Part shown: positions 35,520-64,000 of the stretch, in pieces
How the letters are laid out: the number at the start of each line of letters is the position of its first letter
Numbering within the stretch: position 1 is the first letter of the stretch
Position numbers and translations under genes: made by a program
Origin: a virus
Length of the DNA: 64,000 bases
IMG/VR virus record: IMGVR_UViG_3300024348_000001
Location: 122,055-186,054 of that record
Reading direction: 5' to 3' (one strand)
Notes under the pieces: generated by a model
The model's input: only the letters and a program-made list of their open reading frames with translations
The model's database searches: none
What the model was told of the DNA's origin: nothing

Positions 35520-38500
35520 TTACTCTACCTCCTCATCGAGTAACCCCAGATCGGGACTGTACTGGGTTGTCTGCTGCCTTAAAATTTTGTTCGTTTCCAG
35601 TAATTCTTTCAAACGCGCTGCTCGTAATTCTTCTTCTGTAGGTAACGCCGTCTGTGCTACAGAAATTGGTAATTCAGCAGGCTCTGGCGGTTCATAACGG
35701 CGTGCCGCAGCATTCTCAATGTCACGAATTGTTGTTACAGGCGTTGCCTCTCTGATCAAAGAAGCAATATCTGCGGCACGCTTATTACGAGCTCTGGCAA
35801 TACCGTCGGCAATACTATAAACGCTTTTCTTTTCTACCTTTTCAAGTTTGGTGTAGTACTTAAGATCTTCCACCAAATGATCTTTGGAAATGTCCGCAGC
35901 AATGGCAGGATTAGTGGTGTGCTCGGATTCCGTCTTAACACCCTTAGCCATTTCCTTCTTGGGAAAATCAGAGACGTTGTACTTGTCCCCAATGCCCCCC
36001 GGAAGAATGTCATCGGCGTGTTTGTACTGGTTTTTAAAATTGTCTAACAACGAATCAAGATTGTCTGCGCGCGTATTGTGTGTAAGCGTACCGGGCATGT
36101 TTCCAAATCTGCTCATATCTGACTTGTTGGAGTCATACAATTTCCGACCTAACTCAGAACGATATGCTTCAACTTCAGGCGTCCACGGGTTTCCTTTGGC
36201 TTCTACTCTCTGCTTAGTTCTATCTAGTCTTTGTTGCAAAAGCTCTGTTAATGGTGTCGTGACCAAAACACGATGCGGGTATTGCGCTAATTGTTGTTTA
36301 CGCAACGCAGCTAATTGCGTGCCTTCCACAATGGCACCGTCTTTTGCCGAATTAATCGTGTCGAGTGCCATACGTCGAGCTGCATCAAGATAACGCCTAC
36401 GTTCAATCGATCCGGGCGTCATGTGTTTGTTTTCAGGGTCATTCTTAAATATCTGTTTGAGTGCAGGATGATCATCAATACTCGTGACAGGTAAACCCAA
36501 AGCATCACTAAGTTGTTTTGCCACCGTGGATTTGCCTGCGCCACTATGTCCGCTAATTAAAATAACTTTGGATGGATCAGTTTCTGCGCATTTAACAAAA
36601 TACAGGTCGTCACTAGCGTGTTTATCCGTACCAGTACTATTACTTAAAAATCCTCTGTCTGTTCCAAGCATGCTTAAAAGTTTTTGTTTGTGCTCCGGAG
36701 CCATGTCTTTCATGGCTTCATCTTCATCCCTAACACGATATTCTGGGGCCATCGCAGAATACATGGGACGTGTGCCTAAAAGTTGTTCTGCTGCACGACT
36801 GGGGACTGTGCCTGTTAAACCCTTATCTGTAACTGCAAGCCTAAACCGATCAGCCATGTTTTGTTTAAACGTAGCATCGTCGTGCATCGCTGAATCGGAC
36901 GGATCGTACATATTGGACATGCGGTACGCCAAGTGATGTATGGCGTTTAACCTAGCAGCATCTGCGTTCGACAAATTAACTGATGTCATTTGCTGGGGTA
37001 CGGCCAAAGGCGCAAACGTTACAGGTTTGCCTGTTTTTGCTTGGATCCGCGTGGCTAGTTCATCAAAAACATTTTTACGTTGGGCTTCATCGCCGTTAAA
37101 CGCTAATTCGACATTACCTGTTTCTTCGTTGTTGACGCCTAAACCCGATATGCCTTTTTCGTCTAACAAAGCGTGGTACAGCTTTCGCAGACCTACACCC
37201 TGAACACTGTCGCCATTTGCTGTGTACACTTCCGCAAACTTAATGTGTTGCTGAGGCAGAATGTCGTCATTGGCAACTTTGTTGTTAGATTTGTCACCAT
37301 GCCGTTTCAACACAATCCCTGATGTCTGCAACGCGTCCCAAAGGTTTTTAATTTCCTCGACGTTTATAGGCTTCACGGCTTTGCGTGCAATTCTCTCAGT
37401 AGGCATTAACCGAGGATCTTCAGCAAAGTCTGTGGAAGGTAAATGATGTAAGAACCCGCTTTTGCCTTTATAAATCTTTTCAAAGGCACCGGGGTATCGT
37501 TCTTCTAAAACATAAGGTTCGTTGTTAGTACTCCCCAAGGACAAATCAGCATCTGTCCACGGAGCCATAAAACTCAAAGCTAACTCACGATTAGGTGTTC
37601 CAAAAACCGCAGCTTCGTTGTTAATCACACGGCTAGGGCGTGGTTCAATGTTTTTTAATCTTAAAGAAGACCCGTGGTACAACGCGTCACTAGATAACTT
37701 CTCAGTGTCGGTGCTAGGAGTCATAGGCGTGGCTACGGGCGTATTCAAATCAGGCTTTACGCCAGTCTTAGGTTGCTGGATCAAACCAACTCTACCAAAG
37801 TCAACAGTTCTTGCTAATCCGGGTACGAAGCTTGTGCCTGTAGCCGAACTCGTGGAACCTCTGTGTGTAGCATCCAACAAACTACTCTTAAGCCCCGAAC
37901 CATACATCCTCGTCATCCAGTCGGGGTCATGATGCAAATTGTACATCGCCCTAACCATCTCTGGCTGAAACGGCGCAGGCTTGTCGTGAACCGTAACGTC
38001 CTTAACACCAAAGTACGTCATGTCCTTGAGCATGCTTGGCTTTACCTGCGTGCCAATAGAATAATGCAACACAGGTTTCTCTAAATACTTATTCAAAGCT
38101 CTACTGGGTTCTAATGTCTGAAAACCTTCACGGGGTTTGTATCCATGCTCCAACGTTGAATAAGGAATCACGTCATCGGGTACGTGATCTCCGTATTCCT
38201 CTGTCATTCTCACGTGATCTATCAAACCACGACCAATAAGCTCAATGTTCCTTCTGTGGGAACGAAGCCCCATAGATCCCATAGATTCCTTAAAAGCCTT
38301 AACAAAATACTTGCGGCCTTCGCCTATGCCCTTATGTTGCGTAATGATGGAAGGATTGGGCATGCCTTCGCTAATAACATCTCCGGCTTCAACCTCATCT
38401 CCCGGTTTAACGTTAATCTCAAAACCATGACCTACGTACTGGGGTTTGTCATTAATAAATACGTACTTACCGCCAGCAGGAGCGTCTTCTATTTTCTGAA

Positions 38501-39629
38501 CTTTACCGTCTACAAGCGTGTGTGCAGCTCCACCTTTAAATGTCTTGGGTACTTGAATCAATTGGTTGATGTATTGGAAACCACCTACCGTCTTTTCTTG
38601 TCCCGCAACACCACCCGAGTGCTTTGATCCTAATTGTCCTTGGCTGATAGGTTCTGCAATAGCTTGGGCTGCTGTCATGCCCACCATCTCTCCACGCCCC
38701 GGAAGCGTACCTCTTTCCCTAACACCTACGTCACGAGCATAAACACCGCCATCAGGACTGCCACCCGTCATTGGACTGCGCACCAAGATACGATCGAACT
38801 TACGTGCCTTAAGGTCTTTCAGAATCTTAGGCGTTAATACCGTGTTGCGCTTGTAACCACCAAAGTCAAACGCTAACAATGCGCCTTCATTGTCCATGTC
38901 GTCGGTGTCTACGGGTAATCCTCTAATGCCTAAATCTTGACGTGGATCATCTTGATCAACAACGGCAAGCCTGTGTGCTACTTGATTAAGTTGTTTGCCG
39001 AAGAAGCCTGCATCCGCCGTAGCAAACTTAGTTGCAATAACACCCTTACGCGCGCCATATGTACCAGCCCAATACTCGGCAGGAGTTAACCCTTGAGAAT
39101 AGCTTTTAAGTACAGGCACAGGAATGATGTCACCCCTATGATCTTCGTACAACAAGTCGGCACCGCGTAATGATGCCAAATTCATCTTGTTGCCACGAGA
39201 GCCCGACATGATCTGCATAGCGATTGGGTTTTTTTCAGCCAAACTATCTGTGTACACGTCATCCATTAGTTTTTGCTGATATCCGCCAACAGTTTTAATC
39301 ACAAGTTCGTTACGTTGCTTGTCAGTCAGATAAGGGTTAGCCAGCAACTTTTTAACTTTGCCTCTGATTTCGGCCAGAGTTGCTTTAGCTCCGGCTGTTT
39401 GCGTCAATGCGCCTAAACCAAAGCTAAAGCCACCTGTTTCCGTTGCAACCTGTCGTCCGATGTTAGCCAGTTTCTGACTTACCTCTACGTATTTGTCAGG
39501 ATGCTTATCGGCTAATTCTCTTAGCAGTGTCTGCAACGAAGACTTGTTAAAAACCGTATTGCGCCCACGCATGCTTTCAGGCAATGCATCTTCAATCATC
39601 AATTTGCCGACGGTGCTGCGCGTGATCAC
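35520..39629 (-). CDS. RNA polymerase beta' C-terminal part fused to ART-like, P-loop kinase-like and DUF5661-like domains
   Basis: A 1369-residue protein, GTG start at 39629 (GGGAG six bases before). Residues 1-620 match the C-terminal half of bacterial beta': bridge-helix region MSGSRGNKMNLASLRGADLL (141-160), trigger loop GARKGVIATKFATADAGFF (192-210), and MVGMTAAQAIAEPISQGQLG (315-334), equivalent to GEPGTQLTMRTF. The start MITRSTVGKL resembles the tag MITASELGKL. Residues 640-760 have an ADP-ribosyltransferase-like look (LYHGSS, VFGTPNRELALSF). A Walker A, GHSGAGKST, at 1027-1035 opens a kinase-like domain; near 1215-1275 a DUF5661-like segment follows (LPGGIGDK, ISKDHLVEDLKYYTKL). It should complete the polymerase active centre with the product of 43864-48360. 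Confidence 0.85.
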   Translation of the reverse strand: MITRSTVGKLMIEDALPESMRGRNTVFNKSSLQTLLRELADKHPDKYVEVSQKLANIGRQVATETGGFSFGLGALTQTAGAKATLAEIRGKVKKLLANPYLTDKQRNELVIKTVGGYQQKLMDDVYTDSLAEKNPIAMQIMSGSRGNKMNLASLRGADLLYEDHRGDIIPVPVLKSYSQGLTPAEYWAGTYGARKGVIATKFATADAGFFGKQLNQVAHRLAVVDQDDPRQDLGIRGLPVDTDDMDNEGALLAFDFGGYKRNTVLTPKILKDLKARKFDRILVRSPMTGGSPDGGVYARDVGVRERGTLPGRGEMVGMTAAQAIAEPISQGQLGSKHSGGVAGQEKTVGGFQYINQLIQVPKTFKGGAAHTLVDGKVQKIEDAPAGGKYVFINDKPQYVGHGFEINVKPGDEVEAGDVISEGMPNPSIITQHKGIGEGRKYFVKAFKESMGSMGLRSHRRNIELIGRGLIDHVRMTEEYGDHVPDDVIPYSTLEHGYKPREGFQTLEPSRALNKYLEKPVLHYSIGTQVKPSMLKDMTYFGVKDVTVHDKPAPFQPEMVRAMYNLHHDPDWMTRMYGSGLKSSLLDATHRGSTSSATGTSFVPGLARTVDFGRVGLIQQPKTGVKPDLNTPVATPMTPSTDTEKLSSDALYHGSSLRLKNIEPRPSRVINNEAAVFGTPNRELALSFMAPWTDADLSLGSTNNEPYVLEERYPGAFEKIYKGKSGFLHHLPSTDFAEDPRLMPTERIARKAVKPINVEEIKNLWDALQTSGIVLKRHGDKSNNKVANDDILPQQHIKFAEVYTANGDSVQGVGLRKLYHALLDEKGISGLGVNNEETGNVELAFNGDEAQRKNVFDELATRIQAKTGKPVTFAPLAVPQQMTSVNLSNADAARLNAIHHLAYRMSNMYDPSDSAMHDDATFKQNMADRFRLAVTDKGLTGTVPSRAAEQLLGTRPMYSAMAPEYRVRDEDEAMKDMAPEHKQKLLSMLGTDRGFLSNSTGTDKHASDDLYFVKCAETDPSKVILISGHSGAGKSTVAKQLSDALGLPVTSIDDHPALKQIFKNDPENKHMTPGSIERRRYLDAARRMALDTINSAKDGAIVEGTQLAALRKQQLAQYPHRVLVTTPLTELLQQRLDRTKQRVEAKGNPWTPEVEAYRSELGRKLYDSNKSDMSRFGNMPGTLTHNTRADNLDSLLDNFKNQYKHADDILPGGIGDKYNVSDFPKKEMAKGVKTESEHTTNPAIAADISKDHLVEDLKYYTKLEKVEKKSVYSIADGIARARNKRAADIASLIREATPVTTIRDIENAAARRYEPPEPAELPISVAQTALPTEEELRAARLKELLETNKILRQQTTQYSPDLGLLDEEVE

Positions 39630-39642
39630 AGGGAACTCCCGG

Positions 39643-40077: not shown

Positions 40078-40088
40078 GGCTGACTCCT

Positions 40089-40124: not shown

Positions 40125-40144
40125 CCCCGAGAACATCCGTGTTG

Positions 40145-40543: not shown

Positions 40544-40555
40544 GGTAAATCCTCA

Positions 40556-40822: not shown

Positions 40823-40832
40823 AAATAACTCC

Positions 40833-41618: not shown

Positions 41619-41709
41619 GCGTAATCCTCCAAGTGTTCAAGTTAGCATAAACATTTAACGTAAGCCAGAGAAAGCAATTATTCACCGCAAGCGTCAGATA
41701 AAAAACTAA

Positions 41710-42816: not shown

Positions 42817-42838
42817 GGGTGATTCCTTAAATGCTTAT
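42755..42838 (-). repeat. 84-bp module encoding leader plus N-terminal tag (copy 2)
   Basis: Same 84-base module as 33973-34056. It includes the TAA stop of the upstream gene, which is the first part of TAAGCATTTA. Confidence 0.8.
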
Positions 42839-43845: not shown

Positions 43846-43867
43846 GGGTGATTCCTTAAATGCTTAT
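43796..43867 (-). repeat. Leader plus tag module (copy 3)
   Basis: Third copy of the leader and tag module; the region from the ribosome site to the tenth codon is the best conserved. A fourth, more diverged coding copy lies at 35468-35517. Confidence 0.75.
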
Positions 43868-46800
43868 TGAATGATTTCTACAGGATCGTCTGCTTGGATA
43901 TCTCCACGCTTATATGCGGCTATGGCATCTTGTCTTGACGCAAACACACGAGGTCTCCGTGCTGACGTTTGACTCGACGCATGGTACAAGCCTCCAATAT
44001 ACTCGTTAACAGGCCCATGCACGACAGATTTGAAGTCGGCCGGGTGAAATAAGTTCTTAGAAGGCATCATTCTGTCGTAGGCTTCTCTAACGGCAGCTTC
44101 GCTTGTAGGCACGTGAAACTGCATTGCGTCTCCGTCAAAGTCTGCATTGAATCCTTTTACAATCAACGGAGAAATCTGCATAACATCGCCACTGACTAAT
44201 CGTGGTTTAAATGCCATGATGCCAAACCTGTGCAACACGGGCGCACGGTTGATAAACACAGGCCGCGTTTCCATTTCTTTTAACAATGCGTCTTTAGCCA
44301 ATGCCGTCTTATCCTTAACGTGCCTTAACGCTTCACCCATGGGCATACCCAGACGCTTCAATCGCCTAATCAAAAATTTGTTGTAAACTTCAAACGCTTT
44401 ACCTTCAGGAATGCCTACCGTATCCATATCGTAATCGGGGTTAGGCGTAATTACAGCTCGCCCTACGTTGTCCACAGTCGATGACAGCAATTTACGCTGT
44501 ACCGTCCCAAACTTAGGCGAGTTACCGAAAATTGATTTAAGAATGCCTGAAACATTCTTTTCTTGAAGCTTAGGGTGAATAGGATCGCCAAGCCCTGTGA
44601 TTGCTTTAAAAGAATCGTAAATGGCCAACCTTTCCGACCCCGTATCGTTAAGGCCTACCATGTCCTTCATAGACTTAAAATTAGCCGTAGCGTCCAGCAA
44701 TTCTTTGTATAAGTAATTAGGGTCTGCTACCAAAGGAATACCCGAACTGCCCATGACGGTAACAGGTCTAAAGATAGGCGGAAGCACAGGTACAGCGTCA
44801 AGAATCCAATCTTTAGGATGCAGCCCGTATTTCTCTGCACCTTTGAGGTAACCTAACCTGCGAATGGCATTGTCGCGTGCTGCTTTGTTGCTGCCGTTGA
44901 CTTGCGCCCTAGCTACGTCGATCTCACGTTTGACGTTTAGTTCCGCCAAGGCTTTAGCTATTGCTTGAGGCCCTGTGCCATATCTGCCAAGGATATGCTC
45001 TCCGCCAATCGTGTCTCTAAGTTGTTGCTGCGTTAGACCCAACAAACGTCTAGCGGGTTCTTCCATCACAGGATTAAGAGTTGGCTCGGGTAATTCAATC
45101 TTGGCCCATTGTCTGCCGTTGTGTCCTCCAGTTAACTTTGGATCAAACAGACCGCCTGCAATAGGCTCCATGTTTTTATCAAAGCGAACTGTTTCTCCTG
45201 ACCTAACAACACGATCTGCCGTTAATTGTTTAACGTCACTATTGGTCATGGCCATTACATTGGTTTCTTGGCCATTTGATACAACGTTAATACCTGCGGC
45301 TTTAAGTGAGTTTACAAACTTTTCGTAAATCAAAGGCACCTTGGGTTCAATCGGCGTGTGTCCCTGCATGAACTGTGTCCAATACTCTTCGTTCTTTTGC
45401 CCGCGAATAAGCCCTGCGTCTCGAATGGTTTCTGTAGCACCGTGAGACAACAACGCATTAACGTCCAACATGGAAATACGCTTGGACCCTGATTCTCCAC
45501 CCTTTGCAGGAGCATCTTCTGACGAGTATGCGCCTGACCCACGACCTTGCCCTTTTGATTCCGCCGTGTGATGCAACTTCATGTAGAAACGATTACCAGT
45601 AGCAACGTTATTGACGTATTGATTTCTCGTCACGTCCATAATGTTTTCTGTGCCCTTAAGATTGTATTTCTTAAGTTGCTGTTCCGCCCATTCTGTCATG
45701 TCCTCGATGTCTTCAAAGTCGGGTACAGCAATAGATTTACCTGTTAGCTCTGCGATCTTGCCTAGCATCAATTCCACTTTTTGGGCTGGATTGGTTCTTG
45801 TCACAATACCGAGGGGATTTAGCAATACCTCAAATGGTCGGCCTTGGGAATCTGTAGGCATTTGATGGTCAGGAACAATAGCTGCGATAACGCCTTTGTC
45901 GCCATATCTACCACTCATCTTGTCACCCACTTGCGTAGGGACAATTGATTTAACCAACACCACAGGGCCATTCTTGCTTTGTACGATATCTGTTACTACG
46001 CCCGGATCATGGTGTTTCCACAATACAGACACATCTCCAAACGCCCGCGCACCTTGTTTGTGAATCTTGTTCTGTGGAGATTCCTTTTCCTGCGCACCTA
46101 AGATCAAAGGTTGGTCATACGTTACAGTCTGTCCAACCTTGATAATGCCGTCGTCGTCCATCGTATCCAATAATTGCTTATCGTATTTCTGTGGAAACAA
46201 GGATATGTAATTCCTTTTCCCCATTTTATGTTGATCTGTTACTTCAAGTTCGTGTTGATACATATGCTCTGAAGACATGCGCTTAGCCATGCCTTCGGAA
46301 ATGACGTTAGCGTCTTCAAAGTTGTAACCTTTCCATGGCATATAGGCAGTGCGAGCATTCAACCCCAGTGCCATGGCTCCGTCTTTATCCGTAAAGTTAG
46401 ACCTGACGATTGTTTGTCCTTGTTTGAACATATCTCCGGGCTTCAGCGCCGTAGACTGATGCAACATTGTTTTGCGATTAAATGGATGGTTCTGAAACAG
46501 CTCAATTTCGTCTTTGCTTCCATCTGCGTAGCGTAATTTAACAATACCGTCACTTATGTCTGTAATCTGTCCATCTTGGGCCGCTCTAACAGCACCCATG
46601 TGGACGCCAAACTCGTGTTCAAAGTCTTTAGTGCCTTTTGTGCCGGGAAGAGCACCCCGCACAAAAGGAGCTTCTCCGTCTTTCAATGGCAACGCTTGTG
46701 TCAACATACGACTGGCCATAGCCATACGTTGTGCTTTGACCGCAGACTTAATAGGAATCAGATTACCTAGTGCTGAGAATGCATCTTCAAACGCTGGAAG

Positions 46801-48360
46801 TTCGTAATCAATTTCTTCTCTAGGCACATATGTGATTTTGCCTGATTTCATAGCAGGCACGCGGTTATCGTCGCTTTTCAACGCTCCGGGAAACGCTACG
46901 GCGACATCTGCAAGTTCTTGAGGAGAACGCCATACTGTTTCACCTGTCTTCAAATCCCTGAACTGAGCATAGATCTTGCCGTCGGGTCCTTTACGGGCAC
47001 CTCGAGCAATGTGAGTATCTACCCCTGCTCTCATGCTCTCTGGCGTGCGTACAGGATCCATGAATCCCATGTGAGAAGGTTGCACACTGCGAGCTTCATC
47101 GGGAATGGCATCCATGCTTGGGATACCACCTTCTCCCAAACGTGTGATCTTAGTGTGCTTATCAAGGATTTCGGCAGGATTGATTTCTTCAAGGTTCTGT
47201 CCAAGCCCTGAACCAAGAAGTGCCTGTTCAAGTTGAGGTGTCATTACTCCTGTAGGCATGCTTTTTAAACTGCCTTGGAATGATGCTTTGTAAAATGCGG
47301 CTCTGCGCATGCCCGAATGATCTCGTTCAACACGCTCACGCAACAAATCTTCCGGTCCGTGAAAAGTCTGATAGGCCAAATGGTCACGGTCATCCACTTC
47401 TTGTTCACCGCGCGACACCGCTAAGAGTTTTTTAGTCGTAGCAAGAATGGCGTCTTTGTTCATTCTGTCAAAAGCTGTGCCCAATGTTCTTTTAGTAACA
47501 AAGGGATCTAGCTCCATTCTTTCAAACACGTCCGTAAGCTTCTGCCGCGTCGTTGTTTCATCGCCTTCTAGGTCTTTGGCTTTGAGTAATCTGGCTTTAA
47601 GTTTTTGCACAACGGCAGAATCATTCTCTTTGTAATTAGCGGCGTAAATTTGATCTCCCCACGCTTCTTTGATTTCGGCGTCTGTGGCTCCCATAGATTT
47701 AAGCAAAGGCATCAAAGGCAATTCACCCTGTCCCAATTTAAGTTTGTACACATTTGTTTCTGGGTTGAGCATGTACCTGTGAGAAATGCCTTTGCCCGGT
47801 AATACGTTGGCGTGCGCTTCTAATTCTCCGTTAGATTTAATACGCGTGTAGACGCCGGGTTTGAGCCTTTGCTGTGCAGTTAAGGTGTACTCGCTGCCGT
47901 TGTGGACCATGGTGCCGTATTTAGTCACATAAGGCACATTAGCCAACACCTGATCACGGGCATCAATGACTTGGCCCGTGATGTTGTCCATAAGCTCCCA
48001 CGTGCCTTTAAGACGACGGCCCATGGTCTTACCACCCAACACCGCATCTTTGTGCTGTTTGTTGGAATAGAGTTCGGGATCAATGTATCTGACACCATTC
48101 AAACGCAATGTGTGCTTTTCATTAGAAATGGGTTGAATAGCGGATGCCGCAGCTAATACAGAATCGTAAATAGCTTTGCGTGTGGAACTAACGTCCGAAA
48201 ATGATCTGAGTTGATCCATAGACGGTGATGTAAATTGCGGCTTAGGTGGTGCCGGTAAAATCGACATGTCACCGGCCATAGGAGGCACCGGTGACATGGC
48301 ATCTAACTTGGCGGGTAAAGCACTCGCTGTTGGGCGAGCTGGAGGCAATATAGAATCCAT
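43864..48360 (-). CDS. RNA polymerase beta fused to the N-terminal part of beta'
   Basis: A 1498-residue protein. The beta part shows MDPVRTPESMRAGVDTHIA (equivalent to IETPEG), GYNFEDANVISEG (about 676-690) and GDKMSGRYGDKG (about 811-822), holding the two conserved Lys of the active centre. A beta' part starts near residue 1070 (GLFDPKLTGG): VDNVGRAVITPNPDYDMDTV, RPVFINRAPVLHRFGI, and the catalytic NADFDGD at 1405-1411 with all three Asp. The chain ends 87 residues later, before the bridge helix and trigger loop, which are encoded separately at 35520-39629. No tag-like N-terminus. The ribosome site is weak. Beta-beta' fusion is rare; the break inside beta' resembles those of giant-phage polymerases. 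Confidence 0.9.
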   Translation of the reverse strand: MDSILPPARPTASALPAKLDAMSPVPPMAGDMSILPAPPKPQFTSPSMDQLRSFSDVSSTRKAIYDSVLAAASAIQPISNEKHTLRLNGVRYIDPELYSNKQHKDAVLGGKTMGRRLKGTWELMDNITGQVIDARDQVLANVPYVTKYGTMVHNGSEYTLTAQQRLKPGVYTRIKSNGELEAHANVLPGKGISHRYMLNPETNVYKLKLGQGELPLMPLLKSMGATDAEIKEAWGDQIYAANYKENDSAVVQKLKARLLKAKDLEGDETTTRQKLTDVFERMELDPFVTKRTLGTAFDRMNKDAILATTKKLLAVSRGEQEVDDRDHLAYQTFHGPEDLLRERVERDHSGMRRAAFYKASFQGSLKSMPTGVMTPQLEQALLGSGLGQNLEEINPAEILDKHTKITRLGEGGIPSMDAIPDEARSVQPSHMGFMDPVRTPESMRAGVDTHIARGARKGPDGKIYAQFRDLKTGETVWRSPQELADVAVAFPGALKSDDNRVPAMKSGKITYVPREEIDYELPAFEDAFSALGNLIPIKSAVKAQRMAMASRMLTQALPLKDGEAPFVRGALPGTKGTKDFEHEFGVHMGAVRAAQDGQITDISDGIVKLRYADGSKDEIELFQNHPFNRKTMLHQSTALKPGDMFKQGQTIVRSNFTDKDGAMALGLNARTAYMPWKGYNFEDANVISEGMAKRMSSEHMYQHELEVTDQHKMGKRNYISLFPQKYDKQLLDTMDDDGIIKVGQTVTYDQPLILGAQEKESPQNKIHKQGARAFGDVSVLWKHHDPGVVTDIVQSKNGPVVLVKSIVPTQVGDKMSGRYGDKGVIAAIVPDHQMPTDSQGRPFEVLLNPLGIVTRTNPAQKVELMLGKIAELTGKSIAVPDFEDIEDMTEWAEQQLKKYNLKGTENIMDVTRNQYVNNVATGNRFYMKLHHTAESKGQGRGSGAYSSEDAPAKGGESGSKRISMLDVNALLSHGATETIRDAGLIRGQKNEEYWTQFMQGHTPIEPKVPLIYEKFVNSLKAAGINVVSNGQETNVMAMTNSDVKQLTADRVVRSGETVRFDKNMEPIAGGLFDPKLTGGHNGRQWAKIELPEPTLNPVMEEPARRLLGLTQQQLRDTIGGEHILGRYGTGPQAIAKALAELNVKREIDVARAQVNGSNKAARDNAIRRLGYLKGAEKYGLHPKDWILDAVPVLPPIFRPVTVMGSSGIPLVADPNYLYKELLDATANFKSMKDMVGLNDTGSERLAIYDSFKAITGLGDPIHPKLQEKNVSGILKSIFGNSPKFGTVQRKLLSSTVDNVGRAVITPNPDYDMDTVGIPEGKAFEVYNKFLIRRLKRLGMPMGEALRHVKDKTALAKDALLKEMETRPVFINRAPVLHRFGIMAFKPRLVSGDVMQISPLIVKGFNADFDGDAMQFHVPTSEAAVREAYDRMMPSKNLFHPADFKSVVHGPVNEYIGGLYHASSQTSARRPRVFASRQDAIAAYKRGDIQADDPVEIIQ

Positions 48361-50373: not shown

Positions 50374-50811
50374 TTAAAGCATCGGTCTACCACCACGACC
50401 CGAATCCTGTTCTCGATACTGGCGTAAGTTCTTCTCGCGTTCAAGCTGTTTAATTTGCCTGCGGTACTCACTCATTAGTTCTTCGTGCTGAATGTCTTTC
50501 ACAGTATCATCTGTTGGCTCCTGCAACTTGGCTAGTGCTCTTCCACCCAAAGCTCCCACAACAGGAGGTGCCATCAACGCCAAAGGAAGGCCAACGTTCT
50601 GAAGCGCAGTACCAGCGCCAGTTAAAGTAGAACCGCCTAATCCCATCAATGTCTTAAAAATACTGTCTTCGGCTTGCTTAACGCGGCTCTGTGCCGTTTT
50701 AACTTTTTCCAATATTTCGTCCGGTGTCAGCCCTTCCTCGGCGCATTTCTCAAGAAACGCCACTTTGAACTGATCCCTTGGCGACAAATCCTTAATCAAA
50801 TCAGAGATCAT
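50374..50811 (-). CDS. Small membrane/coiled-coil protein
   Basis: A 145-residue protein: an N-terminal helical part (QFKVAFLEKCAEEGLTPDEI), a Gly/Leu-rich hydrophobic stretch at about residues 54-92 (LMGLGGSTLTGAG, then LPLALMAPPVVGALGG), and a charged helix likely to coil (LMSEYRRQIKQLEREKNL). Two close membrane segments followed by a coiled coil suit a small channel or membrane-anchored protein. A GAGGT site precedes the ATG. Confidence 0.5.
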   Translation of the reverse strand: MISDLIKDLSPRDQFKVAFLEKCAEEGLTPDEILEKVKTAQSRVKQAEDSIFKTLMGLGGSTLTGAGTALQNVGLPLALMAPPVVGALGGRALAKLQEPTDDTVKDIQHEELMSEYRRQIKQLEREKNLRQYREQDSGRGGRPML

Positions 50812-57444: not shown

Positions 57445-57552
57445 ATATAACATACCACCACAAAAGAACATTATCGCCAAACTCTAAGCAAGATCCTGTC
57501 TGACCGATTCATGACTGGCGTAATAAGGCTGATCATGGGGGCTCCAATAGCT

Positions 57553-57590
57553 AAAAAAAAGACACCCAAGGCCGAAGCCTCAGGTGTCTT
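57553..57590 (-). terminator. Terminator of the shared-tail family (copy 1)
   Basis: Stem AAGACACC (57559-57566 with 57583-57590), an inner GGC-UUCG-GCC hairpin, then eight T and AGCTATTG on the minus strand. It ends the lipoprotein transcript. Confidence 0.85.
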
Positions 57591-57594
57591 TAAT

Positions 57595-57735
57595 TTACCA
57601 TCTAATCGACTGACGAACAGTCGTTTGTACGACAGGCGGTCCGTGCCCACCGTAGAACGCCGTTGTCTCAATGTCCATTTGATGCGCTGTGGCACATCCA
57701 CTAGCGCACGCAATCAAAAGCAATAGAAAGCGCAT
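57595..57735 (-). CDS. 46-residue putative lipoprotein
   Basis: ATG 57735, with GGAGGGG six bases before, opens a 46-codon frame ending just before a terminator. The peptide begins MRFLLLLIACASGC: Arg2, a short Leu/Ile-rich core, then Leu-Ile-Ala-Cys10, a perfect lipobox, so a lipoprotein signal peptide is likely. The mature part would be about 37 residues, rich in Gly, His, Thr and Val with few charges. Small phage lipoproteins include superinfection-exclusion proteins (T5 Llp type) and Rz1 spanins; this one lacks the Pro-rich region of Rz1. It is part of the small-gene region, expected to be expressed early. Confidence 0.6.
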   Translation of the reverse strand: MRFLLLLIACASGCATAHQMDIETTAFYGGHGPPVVQTTVRQSIRW

Positions 57736-58111: not shown

Positions 58112-58145
58112 CATAATATATGACGCATTTAAGCTTTGGATTTAG
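58112..58145 (-). promoter_or_regulatory. 34-bp promoter-like element (copy D)
   Basis: Reads CTAAATCCA...GCTTAAATGCGTCATATATTATG on the minus strand, 27 bases ahead of ATG 58084. The TATATT box differs most from the other copies, yet the CTAAAT and GCGTCATAT parts are kept. Confidence 0.7.
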
Positions 58146-58157
58146 ATGCTCTGATAG

Positions 58158-58198
58158 CTAAAAAAAACCCACCCAAGCCCGAAGGCCTGAGTGGGTTA
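58158..58198 (-). terminator. Terminator of the shared-tail family (copy 2)
   Basis: Stem AACCCAC (58166-58172 with 58191-58197), GGCC-TTCG-GGC inner part, then T-run and AGCTATC on the minus strand, just downstream of the stop of 58202-58561. Confidence 0.8.
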
Positions 58199-58201
58199 AA
58201 T

Positions 58202-58561
58202 TCAATAATCATGTCGTACTGTTATTTCCCCCAAATGGGGAACGAGCCATTTTTCTATGCGGGTGTGCTGACACACTCCGCCGTCAAAATTTCGCTCTGT
58301 AATCGTCCGACGCCCGTATAGGGCGTCGGACATTGATTCTGTTTTGGTTGATATGCGGACAGCCCAGCCAGCCGCAATGGCGGCTTTGGCCAGTCTCTTT
58401 TTGCAAAATCCGGCCGCAATAGCGGCTGGGATGTCGTCAGCAGACGCCAATGTCATGTATTGAATAAATTTCGTATTGACGGTTGGGTAATCGTCAATAC
58501 TTTGTTCTACGGTGTCGTTCCGAGCTGCGTGACTTTTAACATACTCAGTGCAATACAGCAT
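58202..58561 (-). CDS. Unknown 119-residue early-type protein
   Basis: AGGAG points to ATG 58561 (LYCTEYVKSHAARND), not the in-frame ATG at 58585, which lies inside the leader hairpin. The protein is mixed alpha/beta with an Ala-rich helix pair (SADDIPAAIAAGFCKKRLAK, then AIAAGWAVRISTKTES), and ends in a beta-like region with HTRIEKWLVPHLGEITV. It is the only gene of a promoter-hairpin-gene-terminator cassette. Function unknown. Confidence 0.6.
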   Translation of the reverse strand: MLYCTEYVKSHAARNDTVEQSIDDYPTVNTKFIQYMTLASADDIPAAIAAGFCKKRLAKAAIAAGWAVRISTKTESMSDALYGRRTITERNFDGGVCQHTRIEKWLVPHLGEITVRHDY

Positions 58562-58582
58562 TTCAGAAACTCCTATTGAATC

Positions 58583-58620
58583 CACACACCTCTAAACCGA
58601 AATGGCTTAGATAGCGTGTG
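58583..58620 (-). other. Leader hairpin A (UUCG type)
   Basis: On the minus strand CACACGC..TCTAA, then CCATTTCGGTT, then TTAGA.GGTGTGTG: stem with a small internal loop and a UUCG-type loop. It lies between promoter A and ATG 58561. Confidence 0.65.
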
Positions 58621-58627
58621 TCTTCCA

Positions 58628-58661
58628 CATGTAATATGACGCATTTAGGCTTCCAATTTAG
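58628..58661 (-). promoter_or_regulatory. 34-bp promoter-like element (copy A)
   Basis: CTAAAT...AAATGCGTCATATTACATG on the minus strand. It stands back to back with a plus-strand promoter candidate starting three bases further on. Confidence 0.75.
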
Positions 58662-58663
58662 GC

Positions 58664-58692
58664 TTGACATTAATTTTCAACAAGACCACAAT
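58664..58692 (+). promoter_or_regulatory. Sigma70-like promoter for the plus-strand island
   Basis: TTGACA (58664-58669), 17-base spacer, then CACAAT (58687-58692), a weak -10. It is the only clear TTGACA in this intergenic region and faces the three plus-strand genes. Confidence 0.5.
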
Positions 58693-58746
58693 CCCTCTTC
58701 GCTAGGCAGGTGATTTGGTTTCTGTTTAGCTTGTTGAGGATTAGTT

Positions 58747-58986
58747 ATGTTGAAGTACGTCGCTCTCGGTTTTATGTGCGTAACCGGTTTTGCCTTTGGT
58801 GGCGAAAAGGGCCAAGATGCTAAGGCTCCCGAAAAGGCCACACTTAAGTCGGCCAACAAGGTCATCGTGGAACAGAAGACCACAGAGTATGCTCCTGTTG
58901 CTAAGAAGAGGAAGTTGCTCTATCGTCCAGTCAGCGTCAAGAAGGTTGTGGGCGAAGTTGAAACCTGCCCTAACTGCAAGAAGTAA
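58747..58986 (+). CDS. Small secreted protein with C-terminal CxxC
   Basis: A 79-residue protein with TGAGGAT before ATG 58747. Residues 1-18 form a signal peptide-like start (MLKYVALGFMCVTGFAFG), followed by a Lys-rich mature part (KGQDAKAPEKATLK, then KKRKLLYRPVSVKKVVG) ending CPNCKK. It heads the plus-strand island with the glycosyltransferase and mutase. If exported, the basic mature peptide could bind anionic surface polymers or act on the envelope; the Cys pair may bind metal or form a disulfide. Not a known family to me. Confidence 0.6.
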   Translation: MLKYVALGFMCVTGFAFGGEKGQDAKAPEKATLKSANKVIVEQKTTEYAPVAKKRKLLYRPVSVKKVVGEVETCPNCKK

Positions 58987-59003
58987 GTATCCTTGTTTAA
59001 TTT

Positions 59004-59046
59004 AAAATCCTCCTGTTTTGGTTTAAAATCAAAACAGGAGGATTTT
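59004..59046 (+). promoter_or_regulatory. Perfect 17-bp hairpin hiding the glycosyltransferase ribosome site
   Basis: 59004-59020 pairs base for base with 59030-59046, loop of 9. The AGGAGG at 59036-59041, seven bases before ATG 59049, lies entirely in the 3' arm. Folded RNA should block initiation unless ribosomes, a helicase, temperature or a protein opens it. It also resembles a weak terminator of the preceding gene, because a TTTT follows. Confidence 0.75.
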
Positions 59047-59048
59047 CT

Positions 59049-60047
59049 ATGTCACAACTGCTTGGCCCTTATCAGTTTGAGTTGTTTTCATTAAAAGAAG
59101 TGCACATGGATTCATCGCGTAATGTGGTGTTTTCATCTAAGCCTGCGATTGATCGGCGTATTCTTGCGGACAGGATTCAATCTCTGACGCAATCGAAATA
59201 CGAGAGAACAATCAATGACGCCAAAGTAATCGACAATCTTCTAACCGTAAAAATGGACAAAGGACATTACGTTCCAAGTTATCCCGCGTTCTACCACATG
59301 ATGGTTGATGGGTTGCCTCGTACTTTTCCCACATTTGAAAACAAACTTGATTTGATTATCAGCGAGCACAATTTCAATTTATTTAAAGGGCTTAGGGAAG
59401 CTGTTGAACCGTGGTTACCTCATAATTCAATAAGCACTTATGCGGGGAATCCTGAGTTCATACAAGCGGCCGATGGTACGGAACTTTATGGTTCTCGCAA
59501 CAGATTGGAAGCTAACGAACTGTCTTTTTTTTCTGTTAAACATTCTTCTAACTACAACGCTAAAGTCATTAACAAAAGAATTGCGTGTGCTTTCTGGCAA
59601 AAGTTCGCTGTTGATCACTGGATTGACGTTAAGCCAAAACGCAGATTGTTTGTTGCTCGGATGGATCAATACTTCAGATCTATGCGTTGTGGAAACCAAC
59701 CTGAATTGGCAAAGATGCTTAGAAAGAAATATGGCTTTGAACTGTACGAAACAGATAAACACAGCTTCATGGAAAACGCTAAGGCATTTCGCGAAGCTGA
59801 ATTTATCATCGGTGTGCATGGGGCCGCGTTGTCACACATATGCTTCTGCCACCCCGGAATTAAATTCATACAGTTGGCAAGCAAAGATGTGTATAACGTG
59901 TTCTTTGATGTGTTGGCTGAAACGTTGAATTTCAAGTACAGAAACCTATATGGGTTTGATGCGAACAACCAAATTTCCAAAACATACAACGAAGTTTTCC
60001 GCGTGCCTCTACATCACATGGAAAAGGCTATCAGAGGCTTGAAGTAA
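59049..60047 (+). CDS. GT61-type glycosyltransferase
   Basis: A 332-residue protein. The C-terminal region holds the family signature: KPKRRLFVARMDQYFRSM (basic, donor-side), then EAEFIIGVHGAALSHICFCH (the conserved HGA(A/G)L) and GIKFIQL. Families of this type (DUF563/GT61) transfer sugars onto polysaccharide or protein. Length is close to a single-domain member, with no membrane segment, so it should work in the cytoplasm. The next gene starts after one base and makes the galactofuranose donor, so I infer that UDP-galactofuranose is the donor used. An unusual leader hairpin controls access to the ribosome site. Confidence 0.75.
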   Translation: MSQLLGPYQFELFSLKEVHMDSSRNVVFSSKPAIDRRILADRIQSLTQSKYERTINDAKVIDNLLTVKMDKGHYVPSYPAFYHMMVDGLPRTFPTFENKLDLIISEHNFNLFKGLREAVEPWLPHNSISTYAGNPEFIQAADGTELYGSRNRLEANELSFFSVKHSSNYNAKVINKRIACAFWQKFAVDHWIDVKPKRRLFVARMDQYFRSMRCGNQPELAKMLRKKYGFELYETDKHSFMENAKAFREAEFIIGVHGAALSHICFCHPGIKFIQLASKDVYNVFFDVLAETLNFKYRNLYGFDANNQISKTYNEVFRVPLHHMEKAIRGLK

Positions 60048-60048
60048 C

Positions 60049-61134
60049 ATGACTAAAGTTGATTATCTAATTGTCGGATCGGGGCTTACAGGGGCGGTTA
60101 TCGCAAGGTCATTGGTTGACGCGGGTAAAGATGTGCTTGTGGTCGATAGGCGTAACCACATGGGAGGAAACGTACACGACACTGTTCATGAATCTGGCGT
60201 CAGAATCCATACATACGGACCACATTACTTCAGAACGTCATCTAAGAAAATATGGGACTTCGCCACAAGGTTTGCCAAGTTCTATAAGTATGAAGCCGCG
60301 TTACTTTCAAATGTTGACAATGAATTAGTACAGTGGCCAATAGCTGGTTCTTACATCACAAGGAAAGTGGGAATTGATTGGGCGCCCGAGTTTAAAGGTA
60401 AACCCTCAAATCTTGAAGAAGCTGCTTTAGGATTGATGCCTAGATTGATCTACGAAAAATTCATCAAAGAATACAACGAAAAGCAATGGGGCGTGCCTGT
60501 CAAAGATTTGTCAGCAGAGTTGTGCTCCCGCTTTGACGTTAGATATGACGATGAACCAAGACTTAAACCAAATGCTCTGTATCAAGGTATTCCAGAAGAC
60601 GGATATGCCTCGTGGATGGCAGCAATGCTCAATGGCGTAAAAGTCGAATTGGGTTTTGATTATCTAAAAAACAGGAATGAGATCGTTGCCCGTAAATGCC
60701 TGATCTTCACGGGACCAATAGACGAATTCTTTGATTATGAATGCGGTAAGCTCCTGTACAGAGGACAGGTCCGCAAACATACTTACATGCCACTGATTGA
60801 TTTTGTGCAGCCATGTGGGCAGGTCAACAATCCATTACACTCTGGAGGTACACACATAAGAACGTTGGAATGGAAACACATGATGCCAAAACATGTGCAA
60901 CCTCAAATAAAAGGTACCGTGGTTACACAAGAAATTCCCTTCACTCCTGTTACTTCAACTAATTACGAATACCCTTTTCCAGACAATGTGAATAAGCACT
61001 TATACGAAACATACAGAACAAAAGCTGATGGCCTGACAAATACACTCATTTGTGGGAGATTGGGTGAATACAAATACTATGACATGGATCAAGCCATAGG
61101 ACGAGCTTTGACACTAAGTGAGAAGTTTGGTTGA
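60049..61134 (+). CDS. glf: UDP-galactopyranose mutase
   Basis: A 361-residue flavoprotein (E. coli Glf is 367) that converts UDP-galactopyranose to UDP-galactofuranose. Motifs: GSGLTGAVIAR (FAD-binding GxGxxG, residues 10-20), RRNHMGGNVHD (34-44), THTYGPHYFRT-like GPHYF (59-63), EYNEKQWGVPVKDL with KQWG (about 144-147), PNALYQGIPEDGYASWM, and the C-terminal GRLGEYKYYDMDQAI, all diagnostic. The key Arg of the family lies in the GRLGEY segment. It starts one base after the glycosyltransferase stop, so the two are surely co-expressed. It shows no sign of disruption. Confidence 0.93.
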   Translation: MTKVDYLIVGSGLTGAVIARSLVDAGKDVLVVDRRNHMGGNVHDTVHESGVRIHTYGPHYFRTSSKKIWDFATRFAKFYKYEAALLSNVDNELVQWPIAGSYITRKVGIDWAPEFKGKPSNLEEAALGLMPRLIYEKFIKEYNEKQWGVPVKDLSAELCSRFDVRYDDEPRLKPNALYQGIPEDGYASWMAAMLNGVKVELGFDYLKNRNEIVARKCLIFTGPIDEFFDYECGKLLYRGQVRKHTYMPLIDFVQPCGQVNNPLHSGGTHIRTLEWKHMMPKHVQPQIKGTVVTQEIPFTPVTSTNYEYPFPDNVNKHLYETYRTKADGLTNTLICGRLGEYKYYDMDQAIGRALTLSEKFG

Positions 61135-61139
61135 TAGCT

Positions 61140-61184
61140 AAAAAAAAGCCCACCCAAGCCCGAAGGCAAGGGTGGGCTTTTTTT
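61140..61184. terminator. Bidirectional terminator of the shared-tail family (copy 3)
   Basis: Eight-bp stem GCCCACCC (61148-61155 with 61170-61177) with eight A before and seven T after, so it can end both the plus-strand island and the minus-strand gene at 61183-61443. On the minus strand the tail is TTTTTTTTAGCTATC. Confidence 0.9.
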
Positions 61185-61443
61185 ATTTTCTGGTTTGGCT
61201 GATTTGGTCCAGCGCACCCATGACCGCATACACGGCCCCTCCTACCATATAAATGGTAAATGCCGTAATTGCCGGTACTGGGACTGTTACCCAATACCAC
61301 AGTATCCACTCTGGTCCCTCAAAAATCTGAGGAACCATCAAGAATTCCGCAAGACTTGTTGCCAGAACAATTGCCGCCACAAGGGCGGCAAGTTTTGTCA
61401 CAACGACAATGTTTGTAACATATGCGTTCATGAAATTCTTCAT
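61183..61443 (-). CDS. Small two-pass membrane protein
   Basis: An 86-residue protein with GGGGGA before ATG 61443. Two hydrophobic segments, about residues 10-30 (IVVVTKLAALVAAIVLATSL) and 46-72 (LWYWVTVPVPAITAFTIYMV), with a short loop (FEGPEW), suggest two membrane passes with both ends in the same compartment. It is a single gene in a promoter-hairpin-gene-terminator cassette. Candidates are superinfection exclusion or holin-like function; nothing specific seen. Confidence 0.65.
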   Translation of the reverse strand: MKNFMNAYVTNIVVVTKLAALVAAIVLATSLAEFLMVPQIFEGPEWILWYWVTVPVPAITAFTIYMVGGAVYAVMGALDQISQTRK

Positions 61444-61460
61444 AACTCAATCCCCCAATA

Positions 61461-61503
61461 ACGACTACGCCACCAAACCGAAGTGGTCTGATGGCGTAGT
61501 CGT
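61461..61503 (-). other. Leader hairpin B (UUCG type)
   Basis: Fifteen-bp stem with one mismatch (61461-61475 with 61489-61503); on the minus strand the loop is GACCACTTCGGTT. It lies between promoter B and the membrane protein start. Confidence 0.8.
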
Positions 61504-61506
61504 CCA

Positions 61507-61540
61507 CATGTTATATGACACATTATTGGGTTGGATTTAG
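61507..61540 (-). promoter_or_regulatory. 34-bp promoter-like element (copy B)
   Basis: Minus strand CTAAATCCA...TGTGTCATATAACATG, starting just after the csrA stop at 61542. Confidence 0.75.
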
Positions 61541-61541
61541 G

Positions 61542-61727
61542 CTAGCTGACTTCCCCTATTCCGGGCAGTAACTCTTCCCTGATGATGTTCAAGGAAGGAT
61601 CAGCCGCTATGCCTATTCTTGCCGTTCTGTCGGGTGCGTCTATGTTCACCAGCATCAGGACAATATCAGGTTTATTGTCCTGCCTGAGAATAATCCTCTG
61701 GCCAATCTTGCGGGTGAGTACAAGCAT
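61542..61727 (-). CDS. csrA: CsrA/RsmA-type RNA-binding regulator
   Basis: A 61-residue protein, the typical CsrA length. The N-terminus MLVLTRKIGQRIIL carries the conserved Leu4 and Arg6 (first RNA-binding strand), DIVLMLVNID the second and third strands, ARIGIAAD the next, and IIREELL the C-terminal strand with the second RNA-binding Arg (Arg50, equivalent to Arg44 in E. coli). The insert of a few residues before strand two is a small variation. CsrA dimers bind GGA motifs in or near ribosome sites. Here it could silence host or phage mRNAs. It shares a transcript with the Lys-rich gene upstream; GAGGT precedes ATG 61727. Confidence 0.9.
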   Translation of the reverse strand: MLVLTRKIGQRIILRQDNKPDIVLMLVNIDAPDRTARIGIAADPSLNIIREELLPGIGEVS

Positions 61728-61734
61728 CCATACC

Positions 61735-62193
61735 TCACGAAAGAGTTACCATCTGATTGAACTTAAATAGCTTCTTGAAAGACTGCTTGTGCTTTTCCAT
61801 TTCTTTCATGAAGGGTACAAGAGCTTTGGCTATGGCTTGGTCTTCGTAGAAAGAAAAGAGTTGGACCTTGTTGGCAATGGCACCTACAGCGGCAATGACT
61901 ACGTTGTGGGCACTGCAAATCTGATTGTTGATTCTTTTGCCTGTGTTACCAATGATCGTGACTTCAATTCTTTTGCAAGGAACAGAAGCCAAATCAATCT
62001 TGCTGTTAATGCAATGCTTGGGATCTATTACCTCAAACATGTCAGCCAAAGATTTGAAATAATCACAACCAATGCGAGCAGGGCCATCTGTCCAATATTC
62101 AACTCTCCACGTGAAGTAAGGCTTGGAAACTTTAGCTTTAGTTTTGGTTTTGGACTTGGCAATTTTTGGCTTAGACACTTGAACCTGTGACAT
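61735..62193 (-). CDS. Unknown Lys-rich protein upstream of csrA
   Basis: A 152-residue protein with ATGGAGG before ATG 62193. The first 25 residues are highly basic (VSKPKIAKSKTKTKAKVSKP), then a mixed alpha/beta domain (PYFTWRVEYWTDGPARIGCD, then RIEVTIIGNTGKRINNQI). The basic N-terminus suggests nucleic acid contact. Eight bases separate it from csrA, so the two are co-transcribed. Function unknown. Confidence 0.6.
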   Translation of the reverse strand: MSQVQVSKPKIAKSKTKTKAKVSKPYFTWRVEYWTDGPARIGCDYFKSLADMFEVIDPKHCINSKIDLASVPCKRIEVTIIGNTGKRINNQICSAHNVVIAAVGAIANKVQLFSFYEDQAIAKALVPFMKEMEKHKQSFKKLFKFNQMVTLS

Positions 62194-62215
62194 GCGACCT
62201 CCATGTGAGAAACAA

Positions 62216-62225
62216 TAAACACTTA
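62216..62225. promoter_or_regulatory. TAAACACTTA motif ahead of the csrA operon
   Basis: Minus strand GTAAGTGTTTATTG, 23 bases ahead of ATG 62193 and without a preceding stop codon. It follows a small hairpin (ACGAG...CTCGT). Confidence 0.4.
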
Positions 62226-62286
62226 CAACGAGTTTTAGTTACTCGTGGAGGAAGTTTAAAAGTTACAAGGTAAGGAGTCAATAGCT

Positions 62287-62327
62287 AAAAAAAAAGACCC
62301 ACCGTAGCCCTAAGGCACAGGTGGGTT
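62287..62327 (-). terminator. Terminator of the shared-tail family (copy 4)
   Basis: Stem ACCCACC (62297-62303 with 62320-62326), then nine T and AGCTATTG on the minus strand. It closes the transcript of the 35-residue gene upstream. Confidence 0.85.
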
Positions 62328-62338
62328 GTTTTGATTTT

Positions 62339-62374
62339 CTGCACGTCTGGACCTATTACAGTCCAGACGTGCAG
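62339..62374 (-). other. Perfect 14-bp hairpin of unknown use
   Basis: 62339-62352 pairs perfectly with 62361-62374 (CTGCACGTCTGGAC), loop of 8. No T-run on either strand. It lies between a small gene and its terminator, so it may protect the mRNA 3' end or be part of a small RNA. Confidence 0.6.
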
Positions 62375-62395
62375 AAGCAAGATCAGAAGGTTGGC

Positions 62396-62503
62396 TTAAC
62401 GCCAGCCCTCTAATCTTGCTAGTTCTCCTACGAACCCTGCGGCAAAGTTTGCCGCAAATACCACGGACTCGAACACCGCACCGATAAATAACTCGAATTC
62501 CAT
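62396..62503 (-). CDS. 35-residue hydrophobic peptide gene
   Basis: ATG 62503, preceded by AGAGGATT, in the position where cassettes of this region have their gene. The peptide begins MEFELFIGAVFESVVFAANF and has a weakly hydrophobic centre and a Trp-Arg end; it may sit at the membrane. It is preferred over a longer overlapping frame (62310-62570) whose start lies inside the leader hairpin. Confidence 0.55.
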   Translation of the reverse strand: MEFELFIGAVFESVVFAANFAAGFVGELARLEGWR

Positions 62504-62525
62504 TTAGGAATCCTCTTGTAACAAC

Positions 62526-62558
62526 TACGCCATCAAACCGAAATGGCCTGATGGCGTA
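62526..62558 (-). other. Leader hairpin C (UUCG type)
   Basis: Perfect 10-bp stem (62526-62535 with 62549-62558, TACGCCATCA) and the loop GGCCATTTCGGTT on the minus strand. Confidence 0.75.
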
Positions 62559-62567
62559 TGGCTGTCT

Positions 62568-62601
62568 CATGTTATATGACGCATTTGAGCCGTGGATTTA
62601 G
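62568..62601 (-). promoter_or_regulatory. 34-bp promoter-like element (copy C)
   Basis: Minus strand CTAAATCCA...AAATGCGTCATATAACATG, overlapping the last codons of the upstream gene. Confidence 0.75.
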
Positions 62602-62807
62602 TTCGTGTTTGCGTTGCCACCCTTAGGATCTTCAGCCATGTCAGCTTCCATCCACAGGTTCCATTTCTTGACCACTCTCTTACCTTTGTAGTAAAGCACA
62701 GGCGTGGACAACTTACCCTCAAAGTCTACCCACATCAAAGAATAGTCAGACGTCAATTCAACATCCACACCATCCACACTCAACAACTGATATTTCACGC
62801 CAGACAT
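62598..62807 (-). CDS. Small unknown protein
   Basis: A 69-residue protein with GGAGGTG before ATG 62807. It is beta-rich with an alternating pattern (VKYQLLSVDGVDVELTSDYS, then LYYKGKRVVKKWNLW) and an acidic to Asn-rich tail. It follows the reductase and a terminator-like hairpin. Function unknown. Confidence 0.55.
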   Translation of the reverse strand: MSGVKYQLLSVDGVDVELTSDYSLMWVDFEGKLSTPVLYYKGKRVVKKWNLWMEADMAEDPKGGNANTN

Positions 62808-62816
62808 AACACCTCC

Positions 62817-62855
62817 ACAAAAAGCAAACAGGCGGGGAATTGAACCCCCACCTGT
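62817..62855 (-). terminator. Terminator after the reductase gene
   Basis: Ten-bp stem with one wobble (62828-62837 with 62846-62855) and an 8-base loop, followed on the minus strand by TTTGCTTTTT. The loop looks like a tRNA T-loop, which is discussed among rejected items. Confidence 0.65.
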
Positions 62856-62883: not shown

Positions 62884-64000
62884 CTAGAACGCGCAGGCAC
62901 CACCAACACATGCATAATTCTGCGCCGATTCCGTCTGATCGTCATCTTCGTACTGACACAACTTAGACCAATCCACCACAGGGAAATCCTTGGAGAACAT
63001 CGCATACTGATCAGCCGTCAATTCCTCATTAGGTGCGTGCTTGTAAACGCCATTATCCTTGGGGAGGAAACTGAGGCCTGTGATTTCATCGAAGTGATCA
63101 TAGACCCAAGAGCCGACTTGGAACCACTCATAAGGCTCCACATAAATAGTCGCAGATACAGAATGCTCGGCCCAGTTACGTTTCCAGCAGAGCCAGTTTT
63201 CCAATTGTTCAATGGCCGTCATGGAGTTACGCGTGAGACAACCATCAGGAGCAGTCTTGGGGAAACCAAACACATACAAGTCATTAGGCCTTTCGGGAGA
63301 ATCATGGTACGGAACGCCTTGGTCAATTAGGAACTTGGCCACAGGTGAATGCTTTGATTCTCTTACCCACCTGATTTGCCTGTCGGCGTAACGAGGACTA
63401 ACGCCAGAAGCACAATCAAAGAACACGCTGCTGTCGCCTCCCGGTTTGATACACGTGTCAGCCGCCGAACGAGAAATACCAAAGCGCCGAGCTAAAGATT
63501 CATTGGTCGCATTAACAACTGTCTTGAGTTTGCGAAGAAGCTCAGGTCTGTCGGGATGTGATGGATGTAGCAGAGGACAATCAGCATGTCCCGTAATATC
63601 CACACCCAGAAGTGCTTCCTCCTCACAGTTCCTACGCCACTGATCCCTGATGTAATTGAAACGAGTACATGTGGCCTGCATAGTGCCGAAATAAGTCGCA
63701 ACAAGGACTTTCTTCATGAGAGTCGTTTCATTGTCTTCAGGTCTGGCTACAGCAATAGAAAGGTTGCAGAACTCATAGGGCCTAAGTTGAATTTCACCGC
63801 ATGGGTTAAAGCCCCAATCATGTCCCTTCTGCCTACGCTCAGGTGCCTGCATATCCATGGCTTGGCGATTGCAGATACCACGTTCGCCTGAGTAACTACG
63901 GATGAGGGACAGCCACTCATCCATGAACACGTCAGTTGAAGGTTTGGAATGGTACACGGCTGAGTTGTTGGCCATGCTGCGATGCTTGTTGTCTATGTAC
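62884..64000 (-). CDS. Class II (adenosylcobalamin-dependent) ribonucleotide reductase, C-terminal part
   Basis: The frame is open at the right edge (HRSMANNSAVY reads through the ATG at 63975), so the N-terminal part is missing. Visible: NPCGEI with the thiyl-radical Cys and Glu, CNLSIAVAR, GTMQATCTRFNYIRDQW, LLGVDITG, KPGGDSSVFFDCASGVSPRY, and the end CVGGACAF. The C-x4-C tail with GGAC matches the redox-active Cys pair of monomeric RTPR-type enzymes such as that of Lactobacillus leichmannii. It makes dNTPs for phage DNA synthesis using cobalamin, in air or without it. A terminator follows. Confidence 0.9.
   Translation of the reverse strand, partial: YIDNKHRSMANNSAVYHSKPSTDVFMDEWLSLIRSYSGERGICNRQAMDMQAPERRQKGHDWGFNPCGEIQLRPYEFCNLSIAVARPEDNETTLMKKVLVATYFGTMQATCTRFNYIRDQWRRNCEEEALLGVDITGHADCPLLHPSHPDRPELLRKLKTVVNATNESLARRFGISRSAADTCIKPGGDSSVFFDCASGVSPRYADRQIRWVRESKHSPVAKFLIDQGVPYHDSPERPNDLYVFGFPKTAPDGCLTRNSMTAIEQLENWLCWKRNWAEHSVSATIYVEPYEWFQVGSWVYDHFDEITGLSFLPKDNGVYKHAPNEELTADQYAMFSKDFPVVDWSKLCQYEDDDQTESAQNYACVGGACAF

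Follow-up and report, generated by a model that had tools for sequence, protein, structure and literature searches.

The 186-kb contig of this virus carried nine near-identical 34-bp elements, all on the minus strand and each preceding a small gene, and the element was probably a phage-specific two-box early promoter of a multisubunit RNA polymerase (RNAP) delivered with the virion, combined with a stabilizing hairpin at the 5' end of the transcript. The nine copies were found by pattern searches over the whole contig. Four of them were in the window (the whole 64,000-nt stretch of DNA analysed here), where a sequence-only reading had placed one directly ahead of each of four small genes. We confirmed their exact positions, on the minus strand and with scores far beyond chance, as well as the single small gene behind each copy. 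The same reading had restricted the element to the small-gene region. This held inside the window but not for the contig as a whole, because the motif search over the whole genome, proposed there as a check, revealed five further copies, likewise before small genes. Additionally, that account did not include the leader hairpin or the terminator, nor the further copies and the swapping of genes.

The element had the layout CTAAATCCA-N10-GCGTCATATAACATG. Its most constant bases were CTAAAT, then GTCATA beginning 15 bases later, and usually a terminal ATG, while CCA and AACATG were the variable parts. The spacer was one base longer in the copy at contig position 28722. A de novo motif search of the upstream regions ranked the 34-bp element first. 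The copies scored 46.7-54.9 with a weight matrix derived from seven of them, and no other site scored above 9 in 104 kb of the virus, nor did any site in eight first-order random sequences. About 82 kb in the middle of the contig were covered by pattern and family searches, which a strongly diverged copy could escape. The TAA of CTAAAT ended a long upstream reading frame in four copies and was therefore probably a stop codon of the gene located upstream; for the copy at 62568, it closed the gene 62598-62807. Upstream of the same gene, at window positions 62828-62855, we observed a strong hairpin with the tRNA T-arm-like GGGGTTCAATTCCCC, although a tRNA search found no tRNA.

The copies in the window avoided structural operons, and none of the nine preceded such an operon. 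Moreover, the motif search detected no second promoter motif in the 104 kb that were read, including the regions before the structural operons, and only the terminator tail remained when the promoter was masked. A candidate second promoter class, TTACGTTATAA ahead of larger genes, did not exceed the chance level and was rejected. Thus, with only nine copies and none before structural operons, this promoter cannot account for most of the transcription.

The elements were built into small cassettes (Table 1) in which the promoter was followed by, usually, a stem-loop, then by a ribosome site, a small ORF and mostly a terminator with a TTTTTTTAGCTAT tail. This tail was present at eight minus-strand places and closed most of the cassettes. 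The four small ORFs directly behind the window copies (82, 119, 86 and 35 aa) had no Pfam matches. Between two of these opposite-strand cassettes, the plus strand (window 59049-61134) carried a UDP-galactopyranose mutase gene preceded by a 332-aa gene.

Most of the copies had leader stem-loops of 14-20 pairs with energies of about -20 to -36 kcal/mol. The five strongest leaders had z from -3.4 to -7.6, and the hairpins of copies 58112 and 86062 were weak. The first paired base was 1-5 nt 3' of the element in every leader, and the ribosome site was outside the stem and single-stranded. Since aligning all leaders together produced too many gaps to test for covariation, compensatory changes were tallied in matched leader pairs. 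Namely, 10 of the 17 pairs were altered on both sides with the pairing kept in related leaders of the 2283 type that shared the same loop, and so were 8 of 16 pairs in those of the 28722 type, again with the same loop. Thus, the stem itself was under selection. A known structured-RNA leader was rejected because the leaders had no match in Rfam at the gathering score. Leader hairpins were not general in two relatives (G001 and G009) or in Salmonella phage Arash.

Bacterial mRNAs are stabilized by a stem placed at their very 5' end (ompA type), and the leader therefore probably prolongs the life of a short early mRNA. The stem-loop would cap the 5' end of this mRNA, usually of one gene, leaving the ribosome site single-stranded, and the capped end should slow 5'-end-dependent decay. 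The terminator with its fixed tail would end most of the units. A hairpin near the early transcription start is also known from phage N4, whose polymerase is carried in the virion as well. However, the N4 promoter is itself a short DNA hairpin read by a giant single-subunit RNAP, whereas here a stem of 14-20 pairs was located 3' of the boxes and the polymerase was a multisubunit one. Thus, an N4-type hairpin promoter was rejected.

Table 1. Promoter cassettes and RNAP genes of the virus (window coordinates unless marked as contig coordinates).
Feature	Coordinates	Strand	Remarks
Promoter-element copies	contig 2283, 2731, 27562, 28722, 86062, 180166, 180682, 183561, 184622	-	
Promoter copy CTAAATCCACGGCTCAAATGCGTCATATAACATG	62568..62601	-	contig 184622; weight matrix and alignment
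Promoter copy CTAAATCCAACCCAATAATGTGTCATATAACATG	61507..61540	-	contig 183561; weight matrix and alignment
Promoter copy CTAAATTGGAAGCCTAAATGCGTCATATTACATG	58628..58661	-	contig 180682; weight matrix and alignment
Promoter copy CTAAATCCAAAGCTTAAATGCGTCATATATTATG	58112..58145	-	contig 180166; weight matrix and alignment
Leader stem-loop	62520..62566	-	about -29 kcal/mol
Leader stem-loop	61460..61504	-	20 pairs, -36 kcal/mol
Leader stem-loop	58578..58625	-	-26 kcal/mol, z about -5
Small ORF, 35 aa	62396..62503	-	behind copy 62568
Small ORF, 86 aa, membrane-like	61183..61443	-	behind copy 61507
Small ORF, 119 aa	58202..58561	-	behind copy 58628
Small ORF, 82 aa	57836..58084	-	behind copy 58112
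Second ORF of the 58112 unit, 46 aa, lipoprotein-like N terminus	57595..57735	-	
Terminator, TTTTTTTAGCTAT tail	62281..62325	-	
Terminator, TTTTTTTAGCTAT tail	61134..61179	-	
Terminator, TTTTTTTAGCTAT tail	58154..58197	-	8 bp before promoter copy 58112
Terminator, TTTTTTTAGCTAT tail	57547..57591	-	
Multisubunit RNAP, beta fused to front of beta', 1498 aa	43864..48360	-	NADFDGD near residue 1405; Arash Gp206 homolog
Rest of beta', 1369 aa, AAA/kinase-like C-terminal part	35520..39629	-	Arash Gp216 homolog

The virus encoded a multisubunit RNAP near the cassettes, and its two subunits were homologous to Gp206 (E 7e-203) and Gp216 (E 2.6e-42) of Arash. Both of these Arash proteins were detected in particles by mass spectrometry. 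Gp206 had the top spectra count of all proteins in purified Arash particles, where the sigma-like Gp10 was present as well (PMC10585845). The homology of the nearby RNAP to a virion protein made reading of the element by a virion polymerase, which had been suggested previously, the best explanation at the level of sequence. Since the Arash enzyme was only about 30% identical to the RNAP of this virus, virion packaging would here rest on homology. The contig, which may be incomplete, had one Rpb2 domain-6 match and hence one multisubunit RNAP. The arrangement of the RNAP genes varied: in several relatives, one frame of ~2050 aa matched both subunits encoded at window 35520-48360 (L009, L010, L012, L017), and in others the RNAP beta gene was interrupted (L007, L008). 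In Vibrio phage D181, a homing endonuclease was annotated under the RNAP beta match.

Box pairs of the same kind, with changes particular to each lineage, were found in three more distant relatives. In G001, with an RNAP 60% identical to that of this virus and a GC content of 63%, the pair was CTAAATA..GTCACAATA, and the TATA core was lost. The pair of G002 (RNAP 58% identical, GC 63%) was CTAAATWAA..GTCATATTA. The pair of G009 (RNAP 44% identical, GC 55%), TTAAAWA..GGCATATAA, rested on pattern matches because the de novo search there was swamped by T-runs. The GC content of our virus was 47%. In Arash, a search without a prior motif returned GGTATAAG as the top upstream motif, ahead of non-structural genes. 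It had 35 copies against 3.6 expected, and 34 of them were on the minus strand, which is the strand of the non-structural genes for replication and metabolism. A weaker upstream box near TTCCAWAAA was located at -22 to -14. Thus, the two-box layout recurred among phages with homologous RNAPs. The Arash motif resembled our element in this layout, in its A-rich upstream box, in a core running from G-rich to TATA and in its position before non-structural genes; it differed in the core (GGTATAAG instead of GTCATATAAC), in its 35 copies, in the weaker upstream box and in having no leader hairpin.

The element may alternatively be read by the host RNAP, which we considered unlikely. In this case, the enzyme would use an alternative sigma factor of the host, or its sigma-70 would be redirected by a phage protein bound to the CTAAATCCA box (compare MotA of T4). 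The early genes of many phages use the host enzyme, and a box followed after about 17 bp by a TATAAC-like hexamer is a geometry that fits a bacterial holoenzyme. However, a host sigma-70 early promoter has TTGACA-like and TATAAT-like boxes 16-18 bp apart, while the first box here was CTAAAT and a sigma-70 scan listed none of the four window sites. In this respect, the previous suggestion that the first box was not a normal -35 was correct. Furthermore, the box pair was kept along the phage lineage at 47, 55 and 63% GC, even in G001 without the TATA core, and the polymerase of this lineage had a virion-packaged homolog. The scan and the lineage conservation gave good support for a promoter that was not of the sigma-70 type.

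It also spoke for the host RNAP that no phage sigma factor was recognized in this genome, where no credible match was obtained with PF04542, PF04545 or PF08281 and the neighbourhood of the primase contained no sigma factor. The protein encoded at 50374-50811 had a weak region-4 score but no Pfam match and was rejected, as were the region-4 matches in G001 and G002, which resembled LuxR-type regulators. Sigma factors were present in G004, G006 and Arash, with weak or broken ones in G009 and G002, and the alignment of two candidate sigma proteins from relatives was too poor for a profile. One sigma region-2-like frame of G002 (L100, G002:60426-60626) contained an in-frame TAA within a conserved stretch and may represent a pseudogene, a sequencing error or recoding. 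Against reading by the virion RNAP, we counted the unrecognized sigma factor, the few copies, the absence of any motif before structural operons, the low identity to the Arash RNAP and the weak or non-general leader hairpins.

The closest known systems for a virion-delivered enzyme were the phages of the phiKZ group, whose AT-rich early promoters (TATATTAC in phiKZ, AAATATATATTAT-N6-G in AR9) are read by a virion RNAP. Early transcripts of AR9 begin 6-7 nt downstream of the AT core and are independent of protein synthesis (PMC5312081). Similar to the early promoters of phiKZ, AR9, OBP and N1M2, our element was a phage-wide motif associated with a multisubunit RNAP. Such promoters have a conserved AT-rich core centred near -10 and repeated upstream of operons, and in comparison with the published consensus the nine copies had a similar core, CATATTAC/CATATAAC. 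In contrast to this group, there was a further constant box 15 bp upstream, together with a GCGTCA lead-in, nine copies only and a leader stem-loop. Additionally, phages of the phiKZ group have two RNAPs (virion and non-virion), each of them split into several parts, whereas here there was a single RNAP with an unsplit beta fused to the front of beta'. We propose that the -35-like CTAAAT(CCA) and the -10-like GTCATATAAC would be recognized by the phage's own multisubunit RNAP, most likely delivered by the virion, for early transcription. The start is predicted about 6-7 nt past the second box, and by analogy with AR9 most transcripts would be expected to start only a few bases away from the stem-loop.

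The same RNAP could instead be made in the cell and use the element for genes expressed later or throughout the infection, since a single multisubunit enzyme in the contig might serve all stages. This seemed rather improbable: the copies avoided the structural operons of the window, the matching Arash motif was on the non-structural strand, and early expression is typical of small exchangeable genes located beside genes for replication or metabolism.

The head of the cassette, that is, the promoter plus the leader, was conserved independently of the gene behind it. A pattern scan identified a related contig, IMGVR 3300032310_000320, in which two heads matched those of cassettes 58628 and 2731 at 95% and 92% identity, respectively, but were followed by unrelated proteins. 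In cassettes 61507 and 2283, the head and the gene were both retained in this contig. Near-identical heads before unrelated proteins showed that the genes were swapped, with a constant head carrying a gene exchangeable between related phages. That these repeats serve mainly as recombination homology for the exchange of small genes, with promoter activity secondary, agrees with the two conserved heads and is compatible with a promoter role, but as the main function it was very improbable, since the fixed -35/-10 geometry, the placement before a ribosome site and an ORF and the terminators pointed to a promoter, and just the two boxes survived in relatives otherwise diverged in sequence.

Mobile regulatory cassettes with the same exchange pattern were reportedly described in T4-type phages by Arbiol et al. 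in 2010, in a paper cited by PMC4177764. As in those cassettes, the terminator, promoter and leader were constant around exchangeable small genes, and related phages had the same regulatory signals with different genes. The difference was a phage-type promoter in place of the T4 early promoter, together with a long leader stem-loop. T4-type phages use early promoters of the host sigma-70 type, whereas this virus had a non-sigma-70 element and its own multisubunit RNAP. At the end of the contig, window 62884-64000 carried a gene similar to phage ribonucleotide reductase that seemed to resume at the contig start (synteny with L072), so the contig was probably a cut circle or a permuted genome.

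We found no promoter described in the literature for tailed phages whose single multisubunit RNAP is of such a kind. The word "promoter" is absent from the Arash paper (PMC10585845) as well as from the mReC paper, which deals with metagenomic phages carrying such RNAPs. It is plausible that the element combines an early promoter like those of jumbo phages with a gene-exchange cassette. More tentatively, a lineage of tailed phages may package a multisubunit RNAP that recognizes bacterial-style two-box promoters, instead of the single core of the phiKZ group, and such promoters may be built into an early-expression cartridge (promoter, 5'-terminal hairpin, small gene and terminator) that exchanges host-takeover genes. 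The motifs give exact predictions of start sites and, since Arash is cultured, the question of the reading polymerase is directly testable. Finally, the cassettes mark small genes under rapid exchange, which make good candidates for a role in host takeover or counter-defence.
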